Assembly (NCBI GenBank): GCA_902812365.1
Contig: CADDZC010000014.1
Coordinates: forward strand, 1 to 57,421
Direction: 5' to 3'
Source: Acidobacteriota bacterium
Lineage (GTDB): Bacteria; Acidobacteriota; Terriglobia; UBA7540
DNA: 57,421 nt
The notes under the pieces were generated by a model. It was not told where the DNA came from. It searched no databases and saw nothing but the letters and a program-made list of their open reading frames with translations. This document shows, one piece after another, positions 5,597 through 57,287 of the stretch (its first letter is position 1; every line of letters begins with the position of its first letter). The translations under genes were made by a program, and so were the position numbers.

Positions 5597-5681
5597 CCTC
5601 GCTCAACTCCTTCCGACACGAAAAAGGTAGGCGTCTCTGTCCTCCCCGCCTACCCAGTCGCCCTTCCGCCGGCTCGCCGGC

Positions 5682-6653: not shown

Positions 6654-6730
6654 ACCCACCTCCTGCAACGATCGGGCCGAAGTCGCCGGCCCTCTTCGGG
6701 CTGCCGCCCCCGCGGTTCGCCGGATCTCCG

Positions 6731-7144
6731 TCACCGTTTCGAGAACTGGAACCGCTTGCGGGCCCCCTTCTGCCCGTACTTCTTCCGCTCCTTGGCGCGC
6801 GGATCGCGGGTCAGAAAGCCGCCTTGGCGCAGCTTCGGCCGGAGCTCGGGATTAAACGCCAGCAAGGCGCGCGCAATTCCCAGCCGCGACGCCCCCGCCT
6901 GCCCGTGCACGCCGCCGCCGCGCGCCAGGATCAGGATGTCAAACTTACCCGCCGTCTCCGTGGCCGCGAGCGGCTGCTGCACCTCGAGGCGCAGCGAGGG
7001 CGAGGGAAAGTAAGCTTCGAGCGGCCGGCGGTTGATCACAATTCTTCCTTCCCCCGGCCGCAGAATGACCCGCGCCACCGACGTCTTGCGACGCCCCGTC
7101 GCCCGATATTGGACGCTATCTTCCACACGTGCTCCTTTGCTCAC
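6731..7144 (-). CDS. rpsI: 30S ribosomal protein S9
   Basis: A 137-aa protein of the 30S head whose C-terminal tail reaches the P-site tRNA. It shows [14 protein letters not shown] near the N-terminus, [19 protein letters not shown] in the middle, and the characteristic end [10 protein letters not shown] with a terminal Lys-Arg. The start is ATG at 7144. It lies 25 bp downstream of rplM, the universal rplM-rpsI pair, and about 77 bp upstream of rpsB. Confidence 0.97.
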
Positions 7145-7169
7145 CAGCCAAAATGGACTGGAACGGTAA

Positions 7170-41557: not shown

Positions 41558-44215
41558 TTAGAACACCAGCCGCGCCTCGCCCTGCCAAACCCGCGGCGGC
41601 ACAAAGTGCGTGCCGCTGAAGGTAGAAAGGAAGTTATACAACGCCTCCCGATCGGTTAGATTGATGACCGTCAACTGCAGGTTCAACTTGTAACGGTCGG
41701 TGTGTAAGACGTTGTCCATTCCGGCGGCCAGATCGAAGAGGTGGCGCGGTGCGATGCGGGGTGGGTTCGTGTCATCGTTCTCAGTCCCGGGAGCGGGAAT
41801 TCGCAACCGCGTCGCGCCATACAGCGGAAAGGGCAGATGGCACGATGGGATGCGATTCGTCAAGCTGGCAACGTTGTCTCCGCAAAAGAAGCCGATCGCG
41901 GCCTGCTGATCCGCATCCAGAGACAAAGCGGCGGCAAGGTCCGGCACCGAACCCGCCACCAGGCCGCTATCGTACCGCCAACTCAACGCTACCCAAGGCC
42001 CCCGCTTGGAGAACTGATACTGAAGGTGAGTCGACTGCTGGAAAGCCTGATCGTGGTCGATTCGAAAAACGTTGTTGTTAAGAGGAGAGTTAAAGATCAC
42101 GCCGCCATTTTCGGGACCGAAGTAGCGCGACCGGGTATGTCCCATCACCGAATAGGCGCTGAACCCGTGGTAGTTCGTCAGATTGAGGCGCAGCCCCACC
42201 CCGTCGATCTTCGACTTGCTCCAGGTAATGGGAAAGGTGAGCGGCGTGTTAAACAGCACGTCGAAATCGAAGGCGTTACGCGTATGCTTGTAGAAGTATT
42301 CCCCGTCCACCACCGCCCAGCGCCCCAGCGCCTGCTCAAACCCGGCGTCGAACTGATTCCGGCGTCCGGATTGCAAAGGCTGGGCTGCCAACGCTCCGAA
42401 GACATGCGTCGCCAGTCCCCCGGCGCCGGTCGCGCTCGACAGGAGCAAATTCTCATTGAAGGGCGTTTCGAGGAATCGGCCGTAAGAGGCTCGCAGCACC
42501 GTATTTGTCCGCTTCAACTTGTAAGCAACTCCCGTCCGAGGCTCGATCTGGTTGGCTCGGCTCAACCCTCGATAGAGATCGCCACGCACGCCCAGGCTCA
42601 CGGTCCAATCACCCACCGTCAAAGCATCCTGTCCGTAGACTGCGTATTCCTTGATCGAGCCCCGGTCGTTGAAGTTAAACAGGTGTCCGCCTCGCGTCAG
42701 ATCGAACGGCACAAGACCCGCGTTGAGCGCGGGGTTGGGCTGAAAACCGGCCGGCGCGCACTGACCGGGATAGGTGATCGCTGGATTGAGCACCGGAGCC
42801 CCATCGGCCTCCAGGCAGACCGGGTTGAAGGCAGCGTCCGTGACGCCCAACGCAAAACCTTCGCCCAAGGCGTTGTACTTCAATTCGATCCCGGCCTTGG
42901 CGTTATGAATGCCACGGGCGTAAGAAAGATCCGCCCGGGCGCCATAGACGCCCAGCCGCCGGTCTTGACCGAGCGTGGCCGGCAAGTCAGAAAAGAGATC
43001 CCGGCTTGGATAGTACTGGACATGGTCGATGCGGGCATACGGGTTCAGGGTGAGCAGCAGCGTGGGTCCGAAAAGATGGGTGTAGCCCGGCGCGACATTG
43101 ATGGATCGGATTTGCTGGTGCTGGTCCTGGCCAACGGCCAACTGATCGTAGGTGTTAGGAATCTGAAACCATGAACGCGAGGCGGAAAGGTTCAGATGCA
43201 AGGAGTCCGCTTCGGTCGGATTGAAGTCAATTCGGTCAAAGACGCTCTCGCCATTGCCGTAATCGTGGAAATTACGGAACTCGGGCGAATCCAAGAATCG
43301 GCCGGTATTGGTGAAGTTCGCGGCCAGGAAGTTTCCCCAGCGCTTTCGTCCGGCTCCGAGAGTGAAATCCGTCGTCGAGGTGCCGAAGGACCCGTATTCG
43401 GCTGTGAAGCTGCCGTGGGGAGGATTCTCTCCCACGCCCGAGCGCGTGACCACGTTAATCACCATGCTGCTCTTATCGCCGTATTCGGCCTGAGGCGTTC
43501 CGGTGACGATCTCCAAGGATTGAACGGCATCGAGCGAAATCTGATTGGAGAAGATTTTACTGTACTGGTCGGTAATGGGCTGGTTATCGAGCGAGATTTG
43601 CGCCTCGGCGTGGTCGCCCAAAGGGTGGAAGAAGCCGTTGGCGTCAGCCGCCACGGATGGCGAAGCGTTGGTGATGACGGAACTGAAGCCGATGGTGGGG
43701 TTCTCGATGGGAAGCTTGTCAATCAAGGATCGATTGACGTCGGTATGAGCGACGGGTGTCTGCTCCAATAGATCGGAAGGCTCGGTCGAGACCGTGATCG
43801 AGGTCGTGGCGGCGGCGATGGCGAGCGCCACCTTTAACTCCACGGGTACCGACGTCCGCACCGAAACGTCTTGCTGGCTGGTTTGAAATCCTGCTGCTGA
43901 TACAACGACATGATAAGGGTTAAAAGGGACATTCGTGAATTCAAAGCTTCCGGACACATCCGTAGTGGTTGTCTTCTCATAGCCGCTGAGAGGGTCGCGA
44001 ATTTCAACCGTCGCTCCCCGGATGGCGGCCCCGGACGGATCCACCACCGAGCCGCGAATCGTTCCGGAAGCGCCGAGGCCCTGGCTCGCAGCCTGCCTGG
44101 GCAATGACAGCAGCAGCAGGATGAACAGAACCGGGACGACTGGGTTCGCGGTCAGCCACCGACCGAGCACAGATAAACGAGCTGCCGATGTCGCTCTAAA
44201 TACGGACCGGTACAT
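41558..44215 (-). CDS. TonB-dependent receptor with carboxypeptidase-regulatory domain
   Basis: 885 aa; ATG 44215 with AAGGAGGG six nt upstream. A signal peptide ending near RQAAS is followed by a carboxypeptidase-regulatory sandwich (GTIRGSVVDPSGAAIRGATV), then a plug domain with DKLPIENPTIGFSSVI, QISLDNQPITDQYS and VTGTPQAEYGDKSSMVINVVTRSG. The 22-strand barrel ends in a terminal aromatic QGEARLVF. It imports a substrate across the outer membrane using TonB energy. The gene just upstream encodes a CPACQI small protein, an arrangement that hints at a metal or metallophore. No substrate can be assigned from sequence alone. Confidence 0.92.
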   Translation of the reverse strand: MYRSVFRATSAARLSVLGRWLTANPVVPVLFILLLLSLPRQAASQGLGASGTIRGSVVDPSGAAIRGATVEIRDPLSGYEKTTTTDVSGSFEFTNVPFNPYHVVVSAAGFQTSQQDVSVRTSVPVELKVALAIAAATTSITVSTEPSDLLEQTPVAHTDVNRSLIDKLPIENPTIGFSSVITNASPSVAADANGFFHPLGDHAEAQISLDNQPITDQYSKIFSNQISLDAVQSLEIVTGTPQAEYGDKSSMVINVVTRSGVGENPPHGSFTAEYGSFGTSTTDFTLGAGRKRWGNFLAANFTNTGRFLDSPEFRNFHDYGNGESVFDRIDFNPTEADSLHLNLSASRSWFQIPNTYDQLAVGQDQHQQIRSINVAPGYTHLFGPTLLLTLNPYARIDHVQYYPSRDLFSDLPATLGQDRRLGVYGARADLSYARGIHNAKAGIELKYNALGEGFALGVTDAAFNPVCLEADGAPVLNPAITYPGQCAPAGFQPNPALNAGLVPFDLTRGGHLFNFNDRGSIKEYAVYGQDALTVGDWTVSLGVRGDLYRGLSRANQIEPRTGVAYKLKRTNTVLRASYGRFLETPFNENLLLSSATGAGGLATHVFGALAAQPLQSGRRNQFDAGFEQALGRWAVVDGEYFYKHTRNAFDFDVLFNTPLTFPITWSKSKIDGVGLRLNLTNYHGFSAYSVMGHTRSRYFGPENGGVIFNSPLNNNVFRIDHDQAFQQSTHLQYQFSKRGPWVALSWRYDSGLVAGSVPDLAAALSLDADQQAAIGFFCGDNVASLTNRIPSCHLPFPLYGATRLRIPAPGTENDDTNPPRIAPRHLFDLAAGMDNVLHTDRYKLNLQLTVINLTDREALYNFLSTFSGTHFVPPRVWQGEARLVF

Positions 44216-44265
44216 GCATCCCTCCTTTGGATATGAACGGCTTGAAATGAAAGGGGTGAAGTCTC

Positions 44266-44631
44266 TCAGTCAGCGGGAGGGTCTCGAGCACCCACGGGCA
44301 AGCGGGAGTTCAGAGTCGGCAGCACAGCCGGAAGCAAAACCAAGCCCGGCACAAAGGGAAGAGGATCAGGCCCCACGGCGCTGGGTGCGGGGTACACGGA
44401 CCCGTGGCGGGCGATCTGGCAGGCCGGGCAGAATGGCTCCGGCTTTTCGAGAGCCTCAACGTGCGCGTGCCGAGCCCACCTCGAAATCGAGTACGTCTGC
44501 AGAAGCGTCAGCGATCCGTGGCCATGAAGTTGCAATATAAAAAAGAGGTGCAACTGGACGAGGATAGCGGCTCCGGCCGTGACCGCGCGGCATGTTCGAT
44601 GCTGGCGCAACGTAATCGACCTCAGCACCAC
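44266..44631 (-). CDS. Small membrane-anchored His-rich CPACQI protein
   Basis: 121 aa, GTG 44631 with GAGGAGG four nt upstream. One hydrophobic segment (TAGAAILVQLHLFFILQL, residues 18-35) is followed by His-rich stretches (HGHG at 36-39, HAH at 55-57) and the motif FCPACQIAR (C68, C71). A low-complexity Pro/Leu tail follows. A very similar plan, N-terminal hydrophobic segment, His cluster, CPxCQI, occurs in the gene at 51105. The layout recalls DUF2946-type proteins, which neighbour TonB copper receptors in some proteobacteria; that link is from memory. It is 50 bp upstream of the receptor gene and surely co-transcribed. Confidence 0.72.
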   Translation of the reverse strand: MVLRSITLRQHRTCRAVTAGAAILVQLHLFFILQLHGHGSLTLLQTYSISRWARHAHVEALEKPEPFCPACQIARHGSVYPAPSAVGPDPLPFVPGLVLLPAVLPTLNSRLPVGARDPPAD

Positions 44632-44650
44632 GCCTCCTCACCGGGGCTAG

Positions 44651-44669
44651 CCGTTCGCCGAGCGAACGG
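44651..44669 (-). promoter_or_regulatory. Inverted repeat upstream of the CPACQI gene
   Basis: CCGTTCG-CCGAG-CGAACGG, a perfect 7-bp palindrome with 5-nt centre, 20 nt before the start codon of the small CPACQI gene. It could be an operator for a metal regulator or a leader hairpin controlling the operon. The stretch 44670-44947 up to the redoxin gene has no other gene and no convincing promoter. Confidence 0.5.
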
Positions 44670-44947
44670 TGAAGCAACCGCCTTCCTCCCCGCTACTTGA
44701 GGGCTGTGCGTGCGATGCGCGAAATCATGCGAAAAGTTGTCTGACAATCGAGGCGGCTTTCCCTTTGACCTCCGCACGCCTTTGCCGCCAAAACCCATTC
44801 TGTCCGAAGCAAACACAATCGAAGCTTGAGCGGCGCTCGGCACCGTGGACTCCGTGTACCGCGCTTCAACGGCGCGACGAGCTTGCCCTCCAGACCGGCC
44901 GGAAGACCTTCATCTCGCCCTCTCGGCAACTCCGTGTCTTGGCCCGA

Positions 44948-46123
44948 TCATCGGCCGTAGACCGCCTGGCGCCAGTACGCTGTATGCCCGATGTAATCGT
45001 CGTCTGGCAGATTGGCGAGAATAAGGCGGCGAAGCCGCAGGGCGTCGACGGCTCCCTCGTGGTGGTACAGCATCTCGCCGCCGGGGCCGAGTAAAACTGT
45101 ATAAGGCACGGCTCCGCTCCAGCCGGGATCGAAGGCTGCTATGAGGTCGTAGATTTGAGGCGAGCCAAAGATCAAATTCCGGCTCGTCGCATGCTGCTTC
45201 TGCAGGTCGCGAAGGACAGCTACCTGCTCGTCCGGATAGTTGATGCTGACGGTCACCAGCTCAAACGCCCGGTGTCCGTACATACGATACATGGTCTCCA
45301 AATCGGGAAATTCTTCGAGGCACGGCCCGCACCACGTAGCCCAGAAGTTGACGAGCGCCAGCTTTCCCGTCGGATTCTGCCGTAGAGCCTTCAGGCCCTC
45401 CCCGTTCACTGACTGCACGGTGACCGGCAAGCTCTCGATCCGCCTCAGTTCCGCTTCGCTCGCCGCCTCCTTGTACATCCACTTGGTGGAGCAGCCGACG
45501 GCCGGAGTTTTCGCCACCGTCACCGGCTTTCCCGCCAAAAGCTCGTCGATGGCGAGGCGAGCGTCCTGGCGGGTGACATATTGCGGGCGCGGGTTGTTGT
45601 CCACGCGCCCCTCATAGCGAAGTCGGCGCTCCGCGTCGAAAATGAAAACGTGGGGCGTGGCCACTGGGCCATAGGCGCGCGCCACCTGCTGAGTATCGCC
45701 ATCATAGAGATAAGGGAAGTTAAAGTGCCGGTAGGCCGCCCGGATTTTCATCTCCTCAAACGAATCGCTCACGTCGGTATAGCCGAGCTCATCCAGGCGA
45801 ATGGCCTTCGGATTATTCGGCTGGATGGCGACGAAGGCCACTCCGCGGCCCTCCTCATCCTCCACCAGCTTCTTAATGCGCGTCTCGTACAGCTGGGCCG
45901 TCGGACAGTGGTTGCAGGTGAAGATGACCACCAGGACCTTGGCCGAAGCGTAATCCTTCAGGCAATGCGTCTTGCCGTCGACCCCGGGCAGACAAAAGTT
46001 CGGGGCGGGCGAGCCGATAGCCAGGGTGGGCGGTGGTTGATCGGCGTCGGGCCGCGCGCCGAGCGCCACAGCGGTCACAGCGAAAAGCAAAACTCCCGAA
46101 GCCCAGCGAAAACTCATGTCCAT
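44948..46123 (-). CDS. Exported redoxin with two thioredoxin-like domains
   Basis: 391 aa with a signal peptide (GVLLFAVTAVALGARP). Domain 1 (about residues 35-195) is an AhpC/peroxiredoxin-like thioredoxin fold starting IGSPAPNFCLPGVDGKTHCL, with FTCNHCPTAQ carrying C70 and C73. Domain 2 (about 235-370) is TlpA-like, with NFWATWCGPCLEEFP (C265, C268). A lone C211 sits between them in AVGCSTKW. Such doubles handle disulfides or thiol cargo in the periplasm. It is co-directional with, and 317 bp upstream of, the CPACQI/TonB operon, so a thiol or metal link is possible but unproven. Confidence 0.9.
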   Translation of the reverse strand: MDMSFRWASGVLLFAVTAVALGARPDADQPPPTLAIGSPAPNFCLPGVDGKTHCLKDYASAKVLVVIFTCNHCPTAQLYETRIKKLVEDEEGRGVAFVAIQPNNPKAIRLDELGYTDVSDSFEEMKIRAAYRHFNFPYLYDGDTQQVARAYGPVATPHVFIFDAERRLRYEGRVDNNPRPQYVTRQDARLAIDELLAGKPVTVAKTPAVGCSTKWMYKEAASEAELRRIESLPVTVQSVNGEGLKALRQNPTGKLALVNFWATWCGPCLEEFPDLETMYRMYGHRAFELVTVSINYPDEQVAVLRDLQKQHATSRNLIFGSPQIYDLIAAFDPGWSGAVPYTVLLGPGGEMLYHHEGAVDALRLRRLILANLPDDDYIGHTAYWRQAVYGR

Positions 46124-46374
46124 AACCTCCTCTCGGGCGAGCGTGACCTGTCGCCCGTTCCGGTATCCCTCATCCGCCTGGGATTGTCAACCACCCGCTG
46201 GGGGCGCGGCCGGAGCGGCGACAACCTCGGCGGCGGCCGCCCGATATGGACGGCGCAAGGATGTTCCTCAAGCGCCAGCCGAAGCCGGAGTCGCACCAGA
46301 AGGCCAACGGCCGTCGAAACGGGGGCGTCCCCCCGCCCGCAGCGGGCAGGCGTTCTCTGCTATAGTTCCCTCGC

Positions 46375-47160
46375 ATGGATGATCCATTTCTCAGCATCGT
46401 CATCCCGGCTTACAACGAAGCCTTGCGCATCCGCAAATCGCTCGAAAGCGTGCGGAGCTATCTTGAGGCGAAGAGCTTCGCCTCGGAGCTGATCGTGGTG
46501 GACGACGGCTCGACCGACAACATGGCTCAGGTGCTTGAAGACGTGGCGCGAAGCTGGCCAGCCCTGCGCGTCCTGCGCCACGCGCCGAATCGCGGCAAAG
46601 GCTACAGTGTCCGCGAGGGGGTGTTGGCGGCGCGCGGACGCTTTGTCGTGTTTGCAGACGCGGACCTTTCCGCGCCCATCGAACAAGCGGACCGGTTGAT
46701 TGCGGCGCTCGAGTCGACCGGGGCCGACGCGGCAGTAGGTTCCCGGGCACTCGAGCGCGCGCTGATCGGCATTCATCAGCCATGGTTCCGAGAGTGGGCG
46801 GGGCGGCTCTTCAACCTGTTCGTCCGCCTCTTTACGGGCCTGGGCATCCACGACACGCAATGCGGCCTGAAAGCCTTTCGACGCGAGACGACGCGGCGCA
46901 GCTTTGAGTTGCAGAGGGTCGAAGGATTTGGCTTTGATCCCGAGGTGTTGTTTCTTATCAAACGTCAGGGGGGCTCCATCCTGGAAATACCCGTTTGCTG
47001 GAACGATGACCGCGCCAGCAAGGTGAGGCTGTGGCGCGATTCAATCCGCATGCTCGGGGAGCTGATCGCCCTGCGCTGGCGGGTATGCACAGGCCGGTAT
47101 CCGAGGGCGCCCGGCTCCCGAGGCAGCCCGCATCCACTGGCCGACGGCCGGGAGCACTAG
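46375..47160 (+). CDS. Family 2 glycosyltransferase (dolichyl-phosphate glucosyltransferase-like)
   Basis: 261 aa, GT-A fold. FLSIVIPAYNEALRI starts the nucleotide-binding half, DDGS is at 43-46, and the metal-binding DAD at 95-97 lies in FADADLSAPIEQ. IHDTQCGLKAFRRE and VEGFGFDPEVLFLIKRQG are typical of enzymes that load a sugar onto a polyprenyl-phosphate carrier. No C-terminal membrane segments are seen, unlike Gtr-type homologues. Start ATG 46375. It is divergent from the redoxin gene (250-bp gap without other genes) and convergent with the RNase P RNA gene. Confidence 0.92.
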   Translation: MDDPFLSIVIPAYNEALRIRKSLESVRSYLEAKSFASELIVVDDGSTDNMAQVLEDVARSWPALRVLRHAPNRGKGYSVREGVLAARGRFVVFADADLSAPIEQADRLIAALESTGADAAVGSRALERALIGIHQPWFREWAGRLFNLFVRLFTGLGIHDTQCGLKAFRRETTRRSFELQRVEGFGFDPEVLFLIKRQGGSILEIPVCWNDDRASKVRLWRDSIRMLGELIALRWRVCTGRYPRAPGSRGSPHPLADGREH

Positions 47161-47200
47161 CTTGGAAACCATGGCGCGGAACGCTAGGGTGCGGTCAGGT

Positions 47201-47745
47201 GGCGCGAGCGGGCCTATAAGCCGAATTCTGTACCCCGATACGATCGGGGTGGTGATCATTCCTCTAACTCCGGCATCGCTGCCGGAGTCCAGCGACCTAC
47301 CCGAGAGTCGCTCTGCCGCGGCGACCCGTAGTTGCCGCTTCCGGCAGCCACCGATCAGGCGGCAGGTTGGTCGGGGCGGGCCACCCCTCCTCTCCTATTT
47401 GGTCTTGCTCCGTGTGGGGTTTGCCATGCCCCCGATATCGCTATCGGGGCGGTGCGCTCTTACATTAAGCACTTAGGCTCTCGGCCTAACCGCCGCACCA
47501 TTTCACCCTTACCCCGTCGGACAATCGGCTCGCTAGCGCGCATCCGACCGTCGCGAGGCGGTATGTTTTCTGTGGCACTTTCCGTACCGGAGGCGTACGG
47601 CCATTTGAGTGGCATCCCCCTCCGGCCCTTGCTGTTAGCAAGCACACTGCCCTGCGGAGTTCGGACTTTCCTCTCCCCCACCCCTGTTCGGCCGTTAGTA
47701 CGACCACTAGGGCGAGGCAGCGATCACCCGGCCTGCCCGCGCAAG
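47201..47745 (-). ncRNA. rnpB: RNase P RNA, bacterial type A
   Basis: The catalytic RNA that trims tRNA 5' ends. The minus strand carries the invariant GAGGAAAGTCCGAACTCCGC block (about 47655-47674), GGGTGAAATGGTGCGGC (about 47491-47507), and the 3' segment ACAGAATTCGGCTTATAGG (about 47214-47232), ending in GGCCCGCTCGCGCC, which pairs with the 5' GCGCGGGC to form P1. The ends are placed to within a few nt. A TATCAT -10 box lies at 47750-47755. At about 545 nt it is clearly longer than the usual 350-450 nt, with extra GC-rich hairpins in the 3' half. Confidence 0.93.
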
Positions 47746-47996
47746 CTCTATGATACCCAAAACGGCTCGTTTAGGCTAGGGGTGAACCCATCGACATTAT
47801 TGAAGCTAAGATATTTATTTTCATATAGATATAACCTGTTAACCGAACTGTGTCCGTGGGATGCCCGAGAGCGCCCTCCCGAACGCAGTCAGGATCCACC
47901 TCTAAGTATAAAATAAGTTATTTATAATCAATAATTTGTGTAAATACGCCGCGCTCCTTCAGAGGAGATCTCCCCGCTTCGAACGCATTTTTGGCC

Positions 47997-48026
47997 TTGA
48001 CATCCTGATCTTCCATCCGCTATAAA
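47997..48026 (+). promoter_or_regulatory. Predicted promoter of the small TPR gene
   Basis: TTGACA (47997-48002), 18-nt spacer, TATAAA (48021-48026). The predicted start is near 48033, leaving about 16 nt before the GTG at 48049. It lies at the end of an AT-rich 250-bp stretch between rnpB and this gene, which otherwise contains only the rnpB -10 region and no gene I can support. Confidence 0.75.
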
Positions 48027-48048
48027 ATATAGATAGGTAAAGAGTAAC

Positions 48049-48792
48049 GTGCGCGACGGAAGTTCGCGTGCTGATGCAGCGATGAAGACGGCGAATAAGC
48101 GGCGATATGAGAGGCCATCCACATCCCGATCCCGGGTCCGGTCGGTGCGGGACATGGTCGTACGCACGCACCGCTCCTCAGCAAGACGTGAGCGGCAACG
48201 GCTTGCCGGTCAATCTCATACGCTGCCGTCGCCGCGACCCGTGCCGCGAGAAGGCGTTAGGGTGATTTCAAAGCCGGCTCCCGACGCTCTCCACGCGGCG
48301 GCGATTAAAAACTTTGAGATGGCGGTTCGCTCTTTTCGCCGGCAAAATTATGTTCGGGCCAAACAGATTTTTGAAAAATTAGCGGCGTCGGCTCCGCCGG
48401 AAGTCGCCGACCGCGCGCGCGTTTATCTCGGCTACTGCACACAAAAGATTGGAGTTAGAACGATTGCCCCAAAAACCGCCGCGGACTACCAGGTGTTAGG
48501 CGTAGCGGAGCTGAACGCCCGGCGGCTCGACTCCGCCATCCAGCACTTGGCTAAAGCTCAGAAACTGGATCCAAAGCGAGAGGATGTCCGTTACGCTCTC
48601 GCTGCCGCCCATGCCTTAAGGGGTGACGCCGAGTCGGCCCTCGAGCACCTGAAAGTCGCGATCGCCTTGCGCCCTCAAAATCGTTTTCTCGCTCGTTCGG
48701 ACGAAGACTTTGGGCCCCTGGCTCAGGATCCGCGGTTCCAAAGCCTCATCGCTTCGACGGGTCACGCCAACTCCGGACATCTTCGCACGTGA
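48049..48792 (+). CDS. Small TPR protein with Arg-rich N-terminus
   Basis: 247 aa, GTG 48049 (an ATG lies 33 nt further on). Residues 12-60 are strongly basic (ANKRRYERPSTSRSRVRSVR), with no signal peptide. From residue 80 on there are three to four TPR-type helix pairs (AAIKNFEMAVRSFRRQNYVR and AELNARRLDSAIQHLAKAQK). It is probably cytoplasmic; the basic tail may bind nucleic acid or membranes. It is 48 bp upstream of the YvcK-like gene on the same strand, so they may be co-expressed. No function can be named. Confidence 0.8.
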   Translation: MRDGSSRADAAMKTANKRRYERPSTSRSRVRSVRDMVVRTHRSSARRERQRLAGQSHTLPSPRPVPREGVRVISKPAPDALHAAAIKNFEMAVRSFRRQNYVRAKQIFEKLAASAPPEVADRARVYLGYCTQKIGVRTIAPKTAADYQVLGVAELNARRLDSAIQHLAKAQKLDPKREDVRYALAAAHALRGDAESALEHLKVAIALRPQNRFLARSDEDFGPLAQDPRFQSLIASTGHANSGHLRT

Positions 48793-48840
48793 AGGCAGCC
48801 GTCCATCTGTGCACGGCATCTCAATCCAGGTCGTAACCCC

Positions 48841-49812
48841 ATGAACGTCGTGGCGATCGGTGGCGGTACAGGTCTGGCGACGCTCTTGCGCGGCCTGAAG
48901 TTGCACGTAACCGCGCCGGGTCGGCCCGCCCAACTGCAACCCTCTGTCAGTCGCCTCGCCGCCGTTGTTACCGTCACCGACGAGGGGGGGAGCTCGGGCC
49001 GCCTACGCCGCGACTTGGGCATGCTTCCGCCGGGAGACATTCGTAATTGTCTGGTGGCGCTCGCCGAGGACGAACAACTGTTTACGAGACTTTTCAACTT
49101 TCGCTTCAGCGGCGGGCATGGTCTGGCTGGCCACAGTTTTGGCAATCTGTTTCTGGCGGCGCTGACTCGGCTGACCGGAGACTTCGCCGCCGCCGTGCGT
49201 GTTTCCAGCGAGGTGCTCGCCGTCCGCGGTGATATCTTCCCCTCCACTCTGGCCGATGTGCGTCTTCGCGCCGAACTTCGTGACGGCCGGATGATCGACG
49301 GCGAGCGGCGAATTGCCAAGACCCGCGTCCCCATTCGGCGCCTTCAGCTGGTCCCGTCCCGCTGCCGGCCCCTGCCGGAAACGCTGCAAGCTATCGAGGA
49401 GGCGGATCTGATTACCATCGGCCCCGGGTCTCTATATACCTCGCTCATACCCAACCTCCTGGTGGCAGGCATTCCCGAGCACATCGCCCGCTCCCGAGCC
49501 CGTAAGGTTTTTATCTCCAACCTCATGACCCAGCGCGGCGAAACGCGGAACTACTCGGCTTCCGATCACTTGCGGGCTTTGCAAGAGCACGCCGGCCGGA
49601 GACTTTTTGACTGCATCGTCCTCAACACCGCCGCCGTATCGCCAGCCATGCAAAAGCGCTACGCCGCTGAGCGGGCCTCGCCCGTCCTCAACGACCTCGA
49701 GCGGATCCGCGAATTCGGAGTGTCGCCGGTCTGCGCCGATTTGCTGAGTCGCGATCGCGTGGCGCGCCACGATCCTCGACAGCTCGCCGAGCTCGTCCTC
49801 GGGCTGGTGTAA
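48841..49812 (+). CDS. yvcK: YvcK/CofD-like protein (gluconeogenesis factor)
   Basis: 323 aa. The N-terminal Rossmann segment VVAIGGGTGLATLLRGLK (residues 3-20) and the motif VVTVTDEGGSSGRLRRDLGML (part of residues 42-62) are diagnostic, followed by FRFSGGHGLAGHSFGNLFL and ITIGPGSLYTSLIPNLLV. YvcK proteins bind UDP-sugars and affect cell shape and carbon use in Bacillus and mycobacteria; the exact activity is not established. In many bacteria it sits with whiA and rapZ, which are absent here. It follows the small TPR gene. Confidence 0.93.
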   Translation: MNVVAIGGGTGLATLLRGLKLHVTAPGRPAQLQPSVSRLAAVVTVTDEGGSSGRLRRDLGMLPPGDIRNCLVALAEDEQLFTRLFNFRFSGGHGLAGHSFGNLFLAALTRLTGDFAAAVRVSSEVLAVRGDIFPSTLADVRLRAELRDGRMIDGERRIAKTRVPIRRLQLVPSRCRPLPETLQAIEEADLITIGPGSLYTSLIPNLLVAGIPEHIARSRARKVFISNLMTQRGETRNYSASDHLRALQEHAGRRLFDCIVLNTAAVSPAMQKRYAAERASPVLNDLERIREFGVSPVCADLLSRDRVARHDPRQLAELVLGLV

Positions 49813-49910
49813 GGGGCCGGCCGCCGAGCCGCACGGGAGCTCTCCCGCCCGGAAAACCCTTATCGCCAACCGGCTCCGCCGTGTGTAGAATCAAACAGAG
49901 AGGATCGGTC

Positions 49911-50981
49911 ATGCCGGAACTGAAGCTCGCGCCGCCTTCTGCGGGTTCGACAGCGACCGCGAGCCTTCACGTGATCGCCGTCGCTATCGTCATTTATGCC
50001 TTGTACGCAGCCAGCTCGATCGTCATCACGCTCGTGTGCTCCATTTTTATTGCCTTTGTGCTCGATCCCGGCGTCGAGCTGATGGAGCGGGCGCGCGTTC
50101 CCCGCTGGGTCGGATCACTCTTCATGGTTCTCCTCGCGCTGGCTGCCGTCTATTTGCTGGTCTACCTTATCTATGGACGGGCTATAGCTCTTCTCGACGA
50201 CCTTCCCCAGCTCGCGATGCGTCTGCGGCACATTGTGACCCATTTCCAGAGTGTTTTCACCCGGATCGGGCAATCGCTTCCCTCTTCCCTCTCGCCCTCC
50301 GATGCCGGTGTGCCTACGGTGCGCGTCCAGCAGGAATCCCCTTGGCAACAGTTCCTGCTGCGCGGCATCGGGTCGTTTTACGCCTTTAGCGTCACGGTGA
50401 TGTTTATTCCGTTTCTCGTCTTTTTCATGTTGGCCTCGAAGGACCATGTGTGGGCGACCAGCCTGAATCTCTTTCCAGCCGAGCGGCGCCAGCACGTCGA
50501 GGACGTCATTCACGGTATTACGCGGATGGCCCGCGAGTACGTGCTCGGCAACATCCTGGTTGCCGTCATCTCAGCGGCGGTCATCACCCCCATCTTCGTC
50601 GGGTTGGGACTGCCCTACGCTCTTATCTTGGGACCGGTAGCAGCTTTCCTCAGCCTCATTCCCTATATCGGCGTGGCGCTGGCGCTGCTGCCACCTCTGC
50701 TGATCGCGCTCGCCACCTTCGAGACGGTCGGACCTTTCGTGGTCATCGCCCTCACAGTCATGGTCGTGCACTTTCTGGCCGTCAACTTTCTCACCCCTAA
50801 ACTCGTGGGACATTTCGTGAAGCTCAATGCCCTTACGATTACGTTGGCCATGATGTTCTGGGCGTGGCTATGGGGAGGCATCGGATTGGTACTCGCCGTG
50901 CCCATGACGGCTACCTTGAAAACCATCTGCGATAACGTTCCCTCGCTCCGTCCGCTCGGCGATTGGATGGGGGGAAGTTAA
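49911..50981 (+). CDS. AI-2E family transporter
   Basis: A 356-aa integral membrane protein from ATG 49911 (GAGAGG seven nt upstream; an upstream start at 49881 has no such site). About seven or eight membrane segments are visible, including VIAVAIVIYALYAASSIVI and the late VLAVPMTATLKTICDNV. The loop LIPYIGVALALLPPLLIAL and VNFLTPKLVGHFVKLNALTI match the AI-2E (UPF0118/TqsA) family. Substrates of this family are mixed (signal export, Na+/H+ antiport); none can be inferred. It lies about 100 bp after the YvcK-like gene. Confidence 0.92.
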   Translation: MPELKLAPPSAGSTATASLHVIAVAIVIYALYAASSIVITLVCSIFIAFVLDPGVELMERARVPRWVGSLFMVLLALAAVYLLVYLIYGRAIALLDDLPQLAMRLRHIVTHFQSVFTRIGQSLPSSLSPSDAGVPTVRVQQESPWQQFLLRGIGSFYAFSVTVMFIPFLVFFMLASKDHVWATSLNLFPAERRQHVEDVIHGITRMAREYVLGNILVAVISAAVITPIFVGLGLPYALILGPVAAFLSLIPYIGVALALLPPLLIALATFETVGPFVVIALTVMVVHFLAVNFLTPKLVGHFVKLNALTITLAMMFWAWLWGGIGLVLAVPMTATLKTICDNVPSLRPLGDWMGGS

Positions 50982-51104
50982 CCGGCGCAGCCGCCCCCGG
51001 GACGCAGTTGCGGGTCCAACACCGACGCGCCGAGGGCTCCCAGGGGTGCAAGGGCGAATTTCGATTGCCTTCGCGCTGTGGATTCTTGTTAGAATAAAAG
51101 CGCT

Positions 51105-51455
51105 GTGGGCTGGACCGCGAAACGCCGATTTCTGCGGGCTGTTTCTGCATGCCTGTTGGCTTTGCAGATTAACCTCCTGTGGGTGGCCGAAAGCCACCAT
51201 CATGAGGAGTCGGCGGATTTGCCGGGACAGGCGCAAAGCGTCGGGGCGGGTTGCGCTCAGACGCCTCCCGCCGCACCCAAGGCGCTTCTGTGTCCGGTGT
51301 GCCAGATTGTGCGCCAGAGCGCGGCGCGCCCGGCCACGAGCTCTCCGGCGCCCGAGGTGGTGGCCTCCGCCTCGCGGCTTCCCGTTTCCAGGTTCGCAGG
51401 ACTCTTCTCCTATTCTCCCACGGTCATATTTGGCCGCGCCCCTCCGTTGTCGTAG
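51105..51455 (+). CDS. Small exported His-rich CPVCQI protein
   Basis: 116 aa. A hydrophobic N-terminus (RAVSACLLALQINLLWVA) is followed by HHHEE at residues 31-35, C50, and the motif LLCPVCQIVR with C63 and C66, then a Ser/Pro tail. It shares its plan with the CPACQI gene at 44266. The GTG start at 51105 is uncertain: a weak -10-like TAGAAT (51090-51095) would make the transcript almost leaderless. It is about 150 bp upstream of the efflux-channel gene on the same strand. A role in presenting a metal to the pump is my inference. Confidence 0.65.
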   Translation: MGWTAKRRFLRAVSACLLALQINLLWVAESHHHEESADLPGQAQSVGAGCAQTPPAAPKALLCPVCQIVRQSAARPATSSPAPEVVASASRLPVSRFAGLFSYSPTVIFGRAPPLS

Positions 51456-51608: not shown

Positions 51609-52886
51609 GTGTATCAGACGAGGCACGCCGCTGTCTTCATCATCATCATCTTGACGTTGGCCGCAAGACCGGGAAACGGCCAGCAGCCGGCTCCGCCGGC
51701 GATGACCATCGACCTGAACCAAGCCGTCCGATTGGCCATCAGTCACAATCCATCGCTGCGGGCGGCCCGCAACGGTATTCTGCAAAGTCAGGCCCAAGAG
51801 ATTACCGCGAGCCTCCGCCCGAACCCCGTCTTTACCTACGACGACCTCTTTGTGCCGATCAGCCCCGGACAGTTCACCGCCACCAACCTGAACCAGATCA
51901 CGGAATTTGACGTCGGAATCAGCAACCTCTGGGAGCGTGGCCACAAGCGGCAGGCGCGGATGCGGGCCGCCCATGACGCCACGGCGGTGACAAGATCGCA
52001 GGTGATGGACGCCGAGCGAGCCCTGACCTTCAACGTCGCCCAGCAGTTCATCAACGTGCTCCTGGCGAAGTCCAACCTGCAATTGGCGCAGCAGGACCTG
52101 GCGAGCTTCCAGCAGACCGTCCAGATCAGCGAGCAACGCTACCAGGACGGCGACATCAGCGAGGGCGATCTGTTGAAGATCAAGCTACAACTGCTGCTCT
52201 TTCAGACCGACGTCTCTTCCGCCCGCTTGGCGCTGGTGCAGGCCCTCGCCAGCCTCCGGCAGTTGATCGGCTACGAAGCTCTCCCGGCCAACTACGACGT
52301 AGTCGGCGAACTCGCTTACCAGCCCTTGCGGCTCAACAAGGAGGACCTGGAGGCCTTGGCGCTGAAGAATCGGCCGGACCTGCTTGCCGCCGAGCAGGGC
52401 GTTAACGCCGCCGAGAGCCAGTACGCCCTCGCCAAGGCCAATGGCAAGCGCGATGTGACGACGACGCTTGATTACACCCACGTCTCGGCCATCAACAGCG
52501 CCAGCTTCATCTTCAATATGGAAATTCCGGTCTTCGACCGAAACCAGGGAGAGATCGCGCGCACCCATTATGCCATTGACCAGTCGCAGGAATTGAAGGC
52601 GGCAGCCGAGCAAGCGGTCAGAACCGACGTCACCAACGCTTACGAGGGACTGCGCACCAACGGCCAGATCGTGGAACTTTACCAATCCGGATATCTCCGG
52701 CAAGCGCAAGATTCGCTCGAGATCAGCGAGTACGCGTACAAACGCGGCGCCGCCAGCCTGCTCGATTTCCTGGATGCGGAGCGGAGCTATCGCGCCACGC
52801 AGTTGGCCTACCGGCAGGCTCTGGCCAGCTACATGCTTTCGCTCGAACAGGTTCGGGAAGCGGTGGGCACGAGGAATCTGCCATGA
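51609..52886 (+). CDS. TolC-family outer-membrane efflux channel
   Basis: 425 aa from GTG 51609 (GGAG six nt upstream, signal peptide YQTRHAAVFIIIILTLAA); ATG 51570 is an alternative. Two repeated halves of long helices and short strands, as in TolC/CusC: LNQAVRLAISHNPSLRAARN opens the first half and LNKEDLEALALKNRPDLLAA the second. It forms the exit duct of the tripartite pump and has the CzcC/CusC-like gene order. Its stop overlaps the next start (ATGA), so it is translated with the adaptor. Confidence 0.93.
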   Translation: MYQTRHAAVFIIIILTLAARPGNGQQPAPPAMTIDLNQAVRLAISHNPSLRAARNGILQSQAQEITASLRPNPVFTYDDLFVPISPGQFTATNLNQITEFDVGISNLWERGHKRQARMRAAHDATAVTRSQVMDAERALTFNVAQQFINVLLAKSNLQLAQQDLASFQQTVQISEQRYQDGDISEGDLLKIKLQLLLFQTDVSSARLALVQALASLRQLIGYEALPANYDVVGELAYQPLRLNKEDLEALALKNRPDLLAAEQGVNAAESQYALAKANGKRDVTTTLDYTHVSAINSASFIFNMEIPVFDRNQGEIARTHYAIDQSQELKAAAEQAVRTDVTNAYEGLRTNGQIVELYQSGYLRQAQDSLEISEYAYKRGAASLLDFLDAERSYRATQLAYRQALASYMLSLEQVREAVGTRNLP

Positions 52887-54073
52887 GAGCAGCGGTGACC
52901 GGAGGCGGGCGGCCAGCGAAACGCGTAGTCTGGGCGGTGGTTCTGAGCGCTGTCTTGGCGGCGTTACCGGGATGCGGCCGGCGGCGCACCGAAGCCACCG
53001 AATCGACGTCTTACGGCACCGAGGGGGGCCGGGCGTCCACGGCGCAACTGTTCACGGTTCCCGCTGAGCAGATGTCACACGTTCAGGTGGTGGCGGCCGA
53101 GCTGACGCCCCTGACGCGCATCCTGCGCCTGCCCGGGGCCGTCGCCTATAACAACTTTGAGACCACGCCGGTCATCACCCAGGTCAGCGGTCCGGTATCC
53201 CGCATTTTGGTGTCGCCGGGGGAGATGGTGCAGAAGGGTCAGCCCATGCTGGAGGTGGCAAGCCCCGATTACGCCCAAGCCCGCACGGCGTACCTGAAGG
53301 CCCGCGACGCCTATGACCTTGCCCAAAAGACTTACTCGCGCGCCAAAGACCTTTATGACCACCACGCCGTCGCCTTGGCCGATTTGCAACAGGCCGAATC
53401 GGCGCGAAACCAGGCGCGGGCCGACTTGCAGGCGGCGACCGACGCCCTGAAGGTGCTGGGTATTCAGAATCTCGATCGGCTGGCTCGAGACCCCGTCTCG
53501 GCGGAAATTCCCGTGCTCGCCCCCATCAGCGGCGAGGTGGTGGAACGGTTGGTGGGCCCGGGCCAGGTCATTCAGAGCGGAGCGACTCAGGTTTTCACCA
53601 TCTCCAATATGAAGACCGTCTGGGTGCTGGTCAACGTTTACGAGCACGACCTCGGCTACGTTCATCTCGGCGAGCCCGTCAGCATTCAAACCGACGCCTA
53701 TCCGACCACGTTCCATGGCCGGATTTCCTATATCGCTTCGGCGCTCGACCCCAACACGCGCACTCTCCAGGTGCGCATCGTGACCGACAACCCCGGCGAG
53801 AAGCTGAAAAAGGACATGTATGTCACGGCCACGGTTGAGGCCGGCACGATCACGAACGCCCTGACGGTGCCGGACTCCGCCGTGCTGCGCACGCCCGAGA
53901 ACCAACCTTTCGTTTACGTGGCCACGGGGCCCAATCAGTTTGCTCAACGCCTGGTGGACGTGGGCGAAAGCGAGAATGGAAAAACCCAGATTGTGGATGG
54001 CCTGCGGGCCGGAGAACGCGTGGCCGCTGCCGGCAGCCTGTTCCTGCAGTTTGCGAATTCTTTGCAGCGCTAG
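52883..54073 (+). CDS. RND efflux periplasmic adaptor (CusB/CzcB-type)
   Basis: 396 aa. The N-terminus has lipobox LPGC (C31), so it is lipid-anchored. A barrel-sandwich hybrid domain opens PVSRILVSPGEMVQKGQPML (about residues 110-129), with a long coiled-coil hairpin (about 130-195) and the return half APISGEVVERLVGPGQ (about 213-228). A beta-barrel follows with PTTFHGRISYIASALDPNTR, and the membrane-proximal end carries LTVPDSAVLRT. It joins channel and pump. No extended Met/His metal-binding N-tail of the CusF type is present. It is 130 bp ahead of the pump gene. Confidence 0.94.
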   Translation: MRAAVTGGGRPAKRVVWAVVLSAVLAALPGCGRRRTEATESTSYGTEGGRASTAQLFTVPAEQMSHVQVVAAELTPLTRILRLPGAVAYNNFETTPVITQVSGPVSRILVSPGEMVQKGQPMLEVASPDYAQARTAYLKARDAYDLAQKTYSRAKDLYDHHAVALADLQQAESARNQARADLQAATDALKVLGIQNLDRLARDPVSAEIPVLAPISGEVVERLVGPGQVIQSGATQVFTISNMKTVWVLVNVYEHDLGYVHLGEPVSIQTDAYPTTFHGRISYIASALDPNTRTLQVRIVTDNPGEKLKKDMYVTATVEAGTITNALTVPDSAVLRTPENQPFVYVATGPNQFAQRLVDVGESENGKTQIVDGLRAGERVAAAGSLFLQFANSLQR

Positions 54074-54203: not shown

Positions 54204-57200
54204 ATGATTCATCGCCTTGTCCAGTTTGCGCTCCATCAGCGGTTTTTGATCCTGATGCTGGTGGCCTTCATCACCCTGGCCGGGGCCATTGCCTTCGAGC
54301 GCATGCCCGTTGACGCCTACCCGGACCTTTCTCCGCCGATGGTGGAGCTAATTACGCAATGGCCCGGTCACGCGGCCGAAGAGGTCGAGCGCCTCGTCAC
54401 CATACCGATCGAGATCGAGATGAACGGCGTACCCAACCTCGTGGTGATGCGTTCGATTTCTCTTTACGGGCTCTCCGACGTGCGGCTGACGTTCGAGTAC
54501 AACACCGATAACTATTTCGCTCGGCAGGTGGTCTTCGAACGCCTGGGAAACGTCACTCTGCCGGCCGGCATTACGCCCAGTATGGCACCGCTGTTCAGCC
54601 CGAGCGGCTTGGTCTACCGATACGTGATCGAGAGTCCGGATCGGACTCCGCAGGAGCTGAAGACCATCGAAGACTGGGTTCTGGAACGCGAATATAAGTC
54701 GGTTCCGGGCGTGGCGGACGACTCCGGTTTTGGCGGCACGGTGATGCAATATCAGGTGTTGCTCGACCCGGTACGGCTTTACGGCTATCACCTGACGGTG
54801 CCGCAAGTGATCCAGGCGCTCGCCGCGAATAATGGCAATACCGGCGGCGGTTTCTATTCCCAGGGCGGACAGTTTTACTATGTGCGCGGTTTGGGTCTGG
54901 TTCACGATTTGAACGACATCGGTGACATCGTGGTCGCCAGCGTCAACGGCGCTCCCATCCGCATTAAAGATGTGGGCCGGGTAGTCATCGGGCACGCTCC
55001 ACGCCTGGGCGAGTTCGGCTTTCAGAACCATGACGACGCCGTCGAAGGCGTCATCATGATGCGCCGCGGCGAGCAGACCCAGAACGTGCTCGAGCGCGTC
55101 GAGGCCAAGACTCGGGAACTCAACCAGCGAGTTTTGCCGCGGGATGTGAAGGTGCACCCGTTCTACGACCGCAGCGGCCTGGTGGACCTGACCACGGACA
55201 CCGTGGAAGCGAACCTATTGCGGGGCATGCTGCTGGTCTTGGTCGTGCTCATTTTTTTCCTGGTCAGCATCCGCGCCGCCATCATCACCGCCCTGACGAT
55301 TCCACTGGCCCTTCTGTTTTCTTTCATCTTCCTTCACGCCCATGACGTTTCCGCCAACCTGCTCTCGATCGGGGCCATCGACTTCGGAATTCTCATCGAC
55401 GGCACCATCGTGATGATGGAAAACGTTTATCGCGAGCTCGGTTTGCGGGCCGGTCAGCGCTATGACCTGCGGGAAGCCATCCTGGCCGCTGCCCGCGACG
55501 TCGATCGCCCAGTCTTCTATTCCGTGGCCGTCATCATCGCCGGCTATCTGCCCATTTACGCCCTAACCGGTCCGGCGGGCTCGCTGTTTCACCCTATGGC
55601 CGATACGATGTCGTTTGCCTTAATTGGCGCCCTGATGTTGGCTCTCACGCTCGTCCCGGTGCTCGCTTCCTATTGGTTCAAGGGCGGCGTCAAGGAACGG
55701 ATGAACCGCCCCTACGAGTGGGTCAAGCGGGTTTACGGAGGTGAGCTTCGCTGGTGTCTGGATCATCCCAAGACAACGATCTTGGCGGCGGCGCTGATTT
55801 TCGGCGGAGTCCTGATGCTGGTTCCGTACATCGGCGGAGAATTTATGCCGCACCTGGACGAAGGGGCGCTTTGGGTGCGGGCGACGATGCCCTATACCAT
55901 TTCGTTCGAAGAGGCTGGCAGGATTGCGCCCCAGATTCGGCATCTGCTGATGTCCTATCCTCAGGTCACCGTCGTTGGACAGGAGCTCGGCCGCCCGGAC
56001 GACGGCACCGATCCGACCGGGTTCTTCAATTGCGAATATTACGTTGGCTTGAAACCATACACGGATCGAGCCTGGCAAGGAACAATCCGGACGAAAGCAG
56101 AACTCATCGACTCCATTAACAGCCGGCTGAAGGCTTACCCAGGCATCATCTTTAATTTTACGCAGCCCGCTGAAGACGCCGTAGATGAAGCGCTAACCGG
56201 ACTCAAGAGCGCCCTGGCGGTGAAAATTTATGGCCCGGACCTGAATGTACTGCAGGACAGGGCCATTAAAATCAAGAACGTTCTTTCCCAGGTACCGGGG
56301 TTTACGGAGCTCACGGTGGTCCGCGAACTCGGCCAACCCAGCCTCCTGGTCGACGTCGATCGCGACAAGATTGCCCGTTACGGCATCAACGTTTCCGACG
56401 TCGAAAGCGTCGTGCAAGCCGGCGTAGGAGGGCAGGCCGCCACCCAAGTGATTCAAGGCGAGAAACTGTTCGATCTGGTCGTGCGGATGGAGCCACGTTA
56501 CCGCGAGGGCGCCCGAGCCATCGGTAACCTGCTGGTAGGGACGCCGAGCGGCCAACAGATTCCGCTCAGCCAGCTGGCCACAATCACCCAGGGCAACGGG
56601 GCTTCCTTCATCTACCGCGAGAACAATTCACGGTACATCGGAGTGCAGTACAGCATCGAGGGCCGCGACCTCGCCCGGGCTGTGGCTGACGGCCAACGCG
56701 CCGTCAGTCAGGCGGTCGATTTGCCAGAGGGCTACCGGCTGGCCTGGGGTGGCGAGTACAGTGAATATCTGGCGGCTAAGGCACAACTCTCCGTGATCGG
56801 CCCTCTCACCGTCGTCTTAATTTTCCTCATTTTGTTTGCCCTTTATGGCAATTTCAAGTTCCCGGTTTCCATCGCGATCGGAGTGATCATGACCGAGCCA
56901 GTCGGAGCCTTGCTGGCCCTAAAGCTTACCCACACGCCGTTTAGCGTGTCCTCCGTCCTCGGACTCCTGGTGTTGATGGGGGTCTCGGTAGAAACTGCCG
57001 TGGTACTGGTTTCCTACATCAACAAGCTGCGGTTGGAAGGAATGGACATCCGTAAAGCCACCTACGAAGCCTCGCTGCTCCGCCTGCGACCGATTATGAT
57101 GACGGCCCTCGTAGCCTGCCTTGGCCTCCTGCCCGCCGCCCTGTCTCACGGTATCGGTTCCGATACTCAGCGCCCCTTCGCCATCGTCATCGTTGCCGGA

Positions 57201-57287
57201 CTCCTCTCTCGCCTGTTTCTCGGGTTCTTTGTCAATCCCGTGCTTTACGAAATGATGGCTCGCGACGGCGACGTCCTGCAGGTATGA
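54204..57287 (+). CDS. RND heavy-metal efflux pump (CzcA/CusA family)
   Basis: A 1027-aa, 12-helix proton-driven inner-membrane pump. Hallmarks: ERMPVDAYPDLSPPMVELIT near residue 33, and the TM4 proton-relay segment DFGILIDGTIVMMEN at 393-407. That pattern (DFG...DG...EN) is the Zn/Co/Ni-type version; Cu/Ag pumps usually carry A-x-G-x-x-x-D-A. The late helix reads VLMGVSVETAVVLVSYINKL, where most relatives have VQNG, so it is a divergent subgroup. The three-methionine site of CusA is not obvious. Divalent metal export is likely; copper cannot be excluded. The gene ends only 10 bp before the insertion-sequence end. Confidence 0.93.
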   Translation: MIHRLVQFALHQRFLILMLVAFITLAGAIAFERMPVDAYPDLSPPMVELITQWPGHAAEEVERLVTIPIEIEMNGVPNLVVMRSISLYGLSDVRLTFEYNTDNYFARQVVFERLGNVTLPAGITPSMAPLFSPSGLVYRYVIESPDRTPQELKTIEDWVLEREYKSVPGVADDSGFGGTVMQYQVLLDPVRLYGYHLTVPQVIQALAANNGNTGGGFYSQGGQFYYVRGLGLVHDLNDIGDIVVASVNGAPIRIKDVGRVVIGHAPRLGEFGFQNHDDAVEGVIMMRRGEQTQNVLERVEAKTRELNQRVLPRDVKVHPFYDRSGLVDLTTDTVEANLLRGMLLVLVVLIFFLVSIRAAIITALTIPLALLFSFIFLHAHDVSANLLSIGAIDFGILIDGTIVMMENVYRELGLRAGQRYDLREAILAAARDVDRPVFYSVAVIIAGYLPIYALTGPAGSLFHPMADTMSFALIGALMLALTLVPVLASYWFKGGVKERMNRPYEWVKRVYGGELRWCLDHPKTTILAAALIFGGVLMLVPYIGGEFMPHLDEGALWVRATMPYTISFEEAGRIAPQIRHLLMSYPQVTVVGQELGRPDDGTDPTGFFNCEYYVGLKPYTDRAWQGTIRTKAELIDSINSRLKAYPGIIFNFTQPAEDAVDEALTGLKSALAVKIYGPDLNVLQDRAIKIKNVLSQVPGFTELTVVRELGQPSLLVDVDRDKIARYGINVSDVESVVQAGVGGQAATQVIQGEKLFDLVVRMEPRYREGARAIGNLLVGTPSGQQIPLSQLATITQGNGASFIYRENNSRYIGVQYSIEGRDLARAVADGQRAVSQAVDLPEGYRLAWGGEYSEYLAAKAQLSVIGPLTVVLIFLILFALYGNFKFPVSIAIGVIMTEPVGALLALKLTHTPFSVSSVLGLLVLMGVSVETAVVLVSYINKLRLEGMDIRKATYEASLLRLRPIMMTALVACLGLLPAALSHGIGSDTQRPFAIVIVAGLLSRLFLGFFVNPVLYEMMARDGDVLQV

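Follow-up and report, generated by a model that had tools for sequence, protein, structure and literature searches.

Two small genes ahead of transport operons

The window analysed here, a stretch of 57,421 nucleotides (nt) of the Acidobacteriota contig CADDZC010000014.1, contains two short open reading frames (ORFs), designated leader A (P0001; 121 residues) and leader B (P0002; 116 residues), each of which is by gene order the first gene of an operon. Leader A is followed after 50 nt by a gene that has a strong Shine-Dalgarno sequence and encodes a TonB-dependent receptor-like protein, and leader B after 153 nt by genes for a TolC-type protein, a membrane fusion protein (MFP) and a resistance-nodulation-division (RND) pump. 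This arrangement, put forward in an original prediction made from the DNA letters alone, is borne out by the coordinates and by Pfam, as are the frames themselves: both encode a hydrophobic N-terminal segment, His clusters and a CxxC motif, which lies within CPACQIAR in leader A and CPVCQIVR in leader B. The tails described there as low-complexity are present, but it was overlooked that they end in R[D/A]PP at a fixed distance from the CxxC. Very probably, both genes belong to the CruR/CutF kind of arrest leader, acting in cis and responding to metal.

P0001 and P0002 are homologous (BLASTP E value 6e-7, single comparison). At zero mismatch, the CP[AV]CQ-type DNA pattern occurs at these two sites only in the 3.5-Mb assembly, and in a profile search the two leaders were the strong matches of this assembly (1.5e-33 and 2.7e-30), next to a weak one (0.007) with an internal stop. 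Searching genome_contigs with P0002 as query yielded no match. The predicted structure of P0002 comprises a helix at residues 3–36, a short helix at the CxxC and coil in the remainder (mean pLDDT 71.5); solved structures compared with the leader profile gave no match. Locations of the distinguished features are summarized in Table 1.

Table 1. Features of the two loci (positions in the window)
Feature	Position	Strand	Remarks
Leader A (P0001)	44266..44631	-	Probable CruR/CutF-like arrest leader before TonB receptor; start GTG 44631 or 44628
CPAC codons, leader A	44419..44430	-	Proposed metal site together with upstream His cluster
RDPP codons (putative arrest motif), leader A	44275..44286	-	CxxC-to-motif 44 residues; stop two residues on
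CCCTCC in Asp-Pro-Pro codons, leader A	44276..44281	-	Proposed anti-Shine-Dalgarno; complementary to 44220-44225
GGAGGG, Shine-Dalgarno of TonB receptor gene	44220..44225	-	
TonB-dependent receptor-like outer membrane protein	41558..44215	-	CarboxypepD_reg, OMP_b-brl_4; Plug below cut-off only
Leader B (P0002)	51105..51455	+	Probable CruR/CutF-like arrest leader before RND pump operon
CPVC codons, leader B	51291..51302	+	
RAPP codons (putative arrest motif), leader B	51435..51446	+	CxxC-to-motif 44 residues; stop two residues on
TolC/CzcC-type outer membrane efflux protein	51609..52886	+	GTG 51609 predicted; open from ATG 51570; Pfam OEP
RND periplasmic adaptor (MFP)	52883..54073	+	Pfam HlyD_D23; RND_mfp TIGR01730 163 bits, cut-off 94.9
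CusA/CzcA-family RND pump	54204..57287	+	ACR_tran; TIGR00914 876 bits, cut-off 701

The start of leader A is preceded by GAGGAGG (44633-44639). Just upstream of this ribosome-binding site, a perfect 8-bp inverted repeat with a 3-nt loop is present at 44651-44669; no common palindrome or Zur-like site was seen upstream of the leaders, although this was a weak test. At 51087-51107 the sequence TGTTAGAAT includes an extended -10-like element; a promoter scan did not have this element in its list. The mRNA of leader B may be leaderless or nearly so, since the element ends 9 nt ahead of the GTG.

A conserved family with a C-terminal motif at fixed spacing

With P0002 as query, 38 of 299 genomes drawn from the class gave matches. 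Of these, 36 belong to the family of the window (own genome counted), which has 39 genomes on the list, and two to one other family. P0001 gave matches in 30 of the 299. All 53 places matched by P0002 were free of stop codons, and two of the 37 matched by P0001 contained one. Forty-seven stretches around the matches were retrieved; together with the window they hold 58 family members, distributed over 47 of the 48 sequences (none in locus L103). In all 23 pairs of homologues sharing at least 55% identity dN/dS lay between 0.09 and 0.47; the frames are therefore translated and selected at the protein level. These values and the 53 stop-free places rule out a chance resemblance or a non-coding frame.

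The second Cys of the CxxC is present in all 58 members; 57 have the first Cys, 57 the first His of the cluster, 51 a second His and 55 the Arg. An [RT]xPP ending is found in 57 (RxPP in 55, TDPP in two), with the stop codon 2–7 residues further on, at exactly two residues in 42 of these 57. Where both motifs occur (n=56), they are separated by 43–45 residues in 55 members (44 in 51, 45 in two, 43 in one and, after correction, 43 in L098) and by 25 in L072; the initial count used the last CxxC, which had given 11 for L098. Because CxxC, one His and the C-terminal RxPP are near-invariant at fixed spacing, with the motif 2–7 residues before the stop, a cis-acting leader, i.e. an upstream ORF (uORF), is indicated. 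The member at 6781-7143 of L066 has the CxxC, lacks the RxPP ending and is possibly a decayed leader.

The variant of the motif differs with the gene that the leader heads: the 21 leaders preceding pumps have RAPP in 19 cases, RGPP in one and RSPP in one, and 27 receptor leaders have RAPP in eight, RDPP in ten, RGPP in four, RSPP in three and TDPP in two. CCT encodes the first Pro of the motif in 34 of 57 leaders; among the remaining 539 Pro codons of these ORFs it accounts for 124 (p 3e-8).

The resemblance to DUF2946, as originally suggested, is real though weak for the family, 20 of the 58 members being matched at E≤1 (best 2.8e-5). It does not extend to membership of the window copies, which we rejected as Pfam DUF2946 proteins since both lie under the curated cut-off, and searching the own genome with the DUF2946 model gave no match at E≤0.01. 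Six of the 58 leaders weakly match Pfam DUF6769 (best E value 4e-4), which might represent a further branch of these leaders.

Eleven more distant relatives were picked by hand from weak matches in the phylum and class, mostly ones reaching the end of the profile, and are not a fair sample. They show the same design, with a spacing of 44 in nine, 43 in one and 47 in one; one (L163) exceeds the DUF2946 cut-off. Eight precede a TonB-type receptor, L162 precedes a porin-like frame, L156 follows a TonB gene, and L157 precedes a further gene. At 5613-7165 (minus) of L162, in genome G307, a small CxxC-RAPP ORF was seen by eye at the upstream end of a porin-like frame with HGHDHGEE.

Operon placement, predicted Shine-Dalgarno pairing and candidate metal

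The genes headed by the 58 leaders, judged by gene order, are not random: 21 leaders precede an RND pump, 29 a TonB receptor and seven porin-like and/or ZnuA (PF01297) genes, with an ABC-3 permease recognised in four of these seven loci; the remaining leader stands behind an RND gene where the contig ends. The pump leaders include those of L063 and L071, at which no TolC gene was recognised in the space before the MFP. A related small protein of a metal-binding type does head both an import-type and an export-type operon, and its Cys and His residues are conserved; the original prediction is supported in these respects. In eight loci (L063, L064, L067, L068, L069, L075, L077 and L080) one leader stands before the pump and a second after it. 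The second copy is then not first in its operon but lies behind the RND gene, and it is followed by a TonB gene in seven of the eight; the contig of L075 ends before any. In L078 and L079, from another family, the pump has no leader in front, and leaders precede TonB and porin-ZnuA genes.

In a tree of 57 leader rows the type of headed operon changes 7 times, compared with a mean of 22.6 when shuffled, although bootstrap values are unsettled and leader A is unplaced; leaders appear to tend to sort by the operon type they head. As the pump and receptor leaders of L068 are sister sequences (99/96), exchange or recent duplication of leaders also occurs.

At receptor junctions, the Pro-Pro and stop-proximal codons of the leader face the downstream Shine-Dalgarno (SD) sequence. 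Recoding, SD-opening and duplex tests were applied to these and the other junctions, excluding those longer than 200 nt or with a next gene of cluster c13 or c5; downstream starts were chosen by a script favouring good SD sequences. The p-values of all three tests are optimistic because related loci are not independent. Fewer than 5% of synonymously recoded versions paired equally well in 9 of 26 TonB, one of 17 TolC and one of four porin junctions. At the TonB junctions (n=26) the modelled SD opening was 0.14 for the RNA alone (free), rose to 0.40 when a ribosome sat on RxPP (parked) and was 0.24 after shuffling of the arrest segment (free versus shuffled, Wilcoxon p 4e-5). Duplex energies were -17.1 kcal/mol for cognate partners and -14.0 for swapped ones (n=19), and none of 20,000 permutations was as good. 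For this permutation test seven of the 26 TonB and one of the 18 pump junctions were removed as near-copies; among them, L104 had only L091 as a close relative still in the set, L100 being already out for length. Sequestration of the SD sequence by the leader 3′ end is thus supported for TonB junctions as a group. For the window's receptor junction, the modelled opening rises from 0.28 to 0.77. The median junction length is 96 nt for pumps (n=18) and 59 nt for TonB genes (n=27).

A CxxC together with His can bind zinc or copper, and the gene set around the leaders appears to lean to zinc. Among solved structures the pump is nearest to ZneA (777 bits, compared with 511 for CusA), and all 21 full-length pumps at these loci have DFGxxxDG or DFGxxxEG in TM4. 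The ZneA site residues we take to be E136, D172, E610 and D654; each of the 21 full-length pumps has Asp, Glu and Asp, respectively, in place of the last three, and the counterpart of E136 is Leu. The window's MFP scores 178.7 bits with the CzcB/NccB model TIGR00999, under its cut-off of 319.3. For the ABC binding proteins, zinc proteins come out nearest and manganese ones a short way behind: AztC gives 99 bits (under cut-off) versus 81 for MntC and, in a second comparison, zinc 82 versus manganese 72. In NCBIfam, ZnuD is the nearest model for two receptors next to distant relatives (L153, 233 bits; L154, 224 bits; cut-off 950), the TonB-copper model giving 64 and 71, and among solved structures ZnuD is again nearest to L153 (138 versus 76 bits). 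For the receptor in the window itself, the solved structures yielded weak matches to two proteins, YncD and a PQQ transporter, and so do not point to a ligand. We place zinc or another divalent metal as the ligand a little short of an even chance.

A DsbC/DsbG-like thioredoxin_4 protein recurs near leaders in 12 loci (cluster c5, assigned by Pfam on two members), including L064, L066, L067, L080, L084 and L092. Upstream of leader A, a gene at 44948-46123 (minus) encodes a double-domain AhpC/TSA plus TlpA/ResA-like thioredoxin protein; AhpC_TSA genes are reported from cruR operons (PMC9426467). An Rfam scan of the window gave an RNase P RNA, one tRNA and nothing else; the RNase P class A gene (47201-47739, minus) overlaps two plus-strand ORFs.

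Candidate mechanism, rival explanations and known systems

For these leaders we infer stalling, metal binding, the identity of the metal and the direction of the response. The leader would be translated first, and the ribosome would thereby expose its signal-like N-terminus, its His cluster and its CxxC. RxPP at the peptidyl-transferase centre would stall the ribosome just before the stop codon, as the in vitro arrest of CruR at RAPP suggests; a transition metal on the nascent His/CxxC site would alter the stall, and the stall would decide expression of the next genes. In SecM, the stalled ribosome opens the downstream SD sequence, and we favour a SecM-like read-out before the TonB receptors. 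The Pro-Pro and stop-proximal codons would form the anti-SD arm of a hairpin hiding the receptor SD; a ribosome parked on RxPP would keep this SD open (on), and metal-triggered release would let the hairpin close (receptor off). The genes, their conservation, motif, spacing and neighbours and the covariation of pairing at TonB loci were all computed here, and we are highly confident that the genes form a divergent set of CruR/CutF-like arrest leaders. In the fuller proposal, which is speculative and, as a whole, unlikely, the nascent chain would sense zinc or some other divalent metal rather than copper; the sensor would occur twice per mRNA (leader-CzcCBA-leader-TonB) and again before ZnuA-type genes, with arrest codons doubling as the receptor anti-SD. 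If it were true, one type of stalling peptide would set both efflux and uptake of the same metal. The paired pump and receptor leaders in one gene row provide a natural experiment on how one sensor can be connected to opposing needs. The lineage also raises two further questions: can zinc be the ligand, and can the same codons encode a stalling motif and act as an anti-SD?

Several results weigh against the reading of the genes as arrest leaders. One family member (L066) has no RxPP ending, and one, the second copy of L075, keeps RAPP and has no CxxC. Leader A carries RDPP; in mutated ApdA/ApdP this variant, like RSPP, allowed arrest only in part (PMC12992588). With Pfam DUF2946 (PF11162; cut-off 23.7 bits) P0002 scores 13.8 bits and P0001 gives no match. 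The window's TonB junction alone is not significant (synonymous control 0.563, shuffle fraction 0.10, duplex rank 7 of 19). Pump junctions (n=18) show SD openings of 0.16 free, 0.27 parked and 0.18 shuffled (p 0.23), and their cognate duplexes do not differ significantly from swapped ones (n=17; p 0.093); at porin junctions (n=4) the values are 0.22, 0.23 and 0.22, i.e. no effect. The CCT bias may have a cause besides pairing, since pump leaders show it too. Finally, if the same metal-release sign is assumed in both leaders, a metal pump would paradoxically be shut by its own metal.

That paradox would be resolved if the leaders had opposite signs, the metal relieving the stall of the receptor leader (off, CruR-like) and promoting that of the pump leader (on, CutF-like), to give reciprocal control on one mRNA. 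Both signs are published within the wider family (PMC9973294), RAPP predominates in pump leaders as compared with receptor leaders, and the two classes lie largely apart on the tree; both classes nevertheless share the same His/CxxC layout and spacing, and the two leaders of L068 are sisters. We regard opposite signs as possible, though we incline against them.

Another explanation concerns the read-out, which at both operons might be Rho-dependent termination in the intergenic region, as for CruR of B. pertussis, the closest tested precedent (PMC9426467). The longer pump junctions and their non-significant SD pairing agree with this, whereas TonB junctions as a group show SD sequestration and covariation, and typical ones are short compared with the 162 nt between cruR and bfrG. 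Rho-dependent read-out at both operons seems rather unlikely.

It is distinctly improbable that the RND pump serves metal acquisition, for example by exporting a metal-binding small molecule retaken by the TonB receptor, with both leaders on in starvation. Pump and receptor do share one gene row with leaders in seven loci, and the same leader type precedes porin-like/ZnuA uptake genes in seven; yet the pump is of the CusA/CzcA heavy-metal type, with ZneA nearest among solved structures, and a scan of neighbours, limited to representatives, revealed no gene recognisable as one for metallophore biosynthesis.

In the original prediction, uptake and efflux share one metal-binding adaptor. Such an adaptor, or a periplasmic chaperone passing metal to the TonB receptor as well as the RND pump, would fit the signal-like N-terminus, the His cluster and CxxC of almost all members and the copies beside each transporter type, but we consider it very improbable, since an adaptor has no need of a C-terminal RxPP that keeps a constant spacing from the CxxC and lies 2–7 residues ahead of the stop, the low-confidence and mostly coil model is more in keeping with a leader than with a folded adaptor, leaders tend to sort by headed operon, the 3′ codons at TonB junctions covary with the downstream SD, and the studied relatives seem short-lived (CutF is rapidly degraded, PMC9973294; CruR is thought to be, PMC9426467). 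Nor is an adaptor needed to explain the placements, because the leader kind and both placements are already known: CruR/CutF leaders, and their location before RND pumps and TonB receptors, have been published (PMC9426467, PMC9973294), which leaves the idea of an undescribed system without support.

Arrest peptides of the SecM and RAPP type resemble the present leaders in their C-terminal RAPP/RAGP-like arrest motif (PMC10987492, PMC12992588). Those related to Sec/YidC monitor protein export and are released by pulling force, and no metal site is described for them in the text consulted. CzcI, encoded before czcCBA, is reported in PMC9973294 to be without a Pro motif, whereas each of the 21 pump leaders here has retained one (RAPP, RGPP or RSPP).

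CruR (B. pertussis bp2923) is a DUF2946 uORF of bfrG/crtA; its CXXC is needed for the copper response and its RAPP for downstream expression, the two being 45 residues apart, a spacing from which members of its family deviate by no more than one or two residues (PMC9426467). Arrest of CruR at RAPP was shown in vitro, and RAPP/RGPP uORFs were reported before TonB and copper genes (PMC12992588). The genes described here are likewise small ORFs with an export-signal-like N-terminus and a spacing of 44, and leader A, too, stands directly before a TonB receptor; the CXXC is present in both window copies and 57 of 58 homologues, and the C-terminal motif is RAPP in leader B and the variant RDPP in leader A. 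Unlike CruR, the window copies score under the DUF2946 cut-off. CruR acts through Rho-dependent termination and responds to copper; here, receptor junctions are mostly short, SD pairing is seen as a group and the surrounding genes lean to zinc. A second leader may also sit inside the operon, between pump and receptor; as PMC9426467 calls DUF2946 genes systematically first, this arrangement is new as far as found. No zinc-responsive or tandem version was found in the literature searched, whose scope excluded subscription papers, preprints and supplements.

The CutF-like proteins, with R. capsulatus CutF as the example, share with these leaders the Cys motif, frequent OEP, CusA/CzcA and TonB neighbours and stem-loop control of the downstream SD (PMC9973294). 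Both window leaders have fewer than 150 residues, PP in the last 15 (two residues from the end) and a same-strand next gene within 1,000 nt, as the rules for CutF-like proteins specify. Not all such proteins are copper-specific, clusters with only the His motif lying beside HupE/UreJ (nickel/cobalt) (PMC9973294). In CutF an intergenic stem-loop covers the next SD and copper turns CutO on, a sign opposite to that of CruR (PMC9973294), whereas at the receptor junctions described here the arrest codons themselves seem to be the anti-SD arm. Compared with these systems, apparently new are the paired leaders in one operon (leader-CzcCBA-leader-TonB), a further leader site before porin/ZnuA uptake genes, the zinc-leaning gene set and the pairing of arrest codons with the receptor's SD sequence at TonB junctions.

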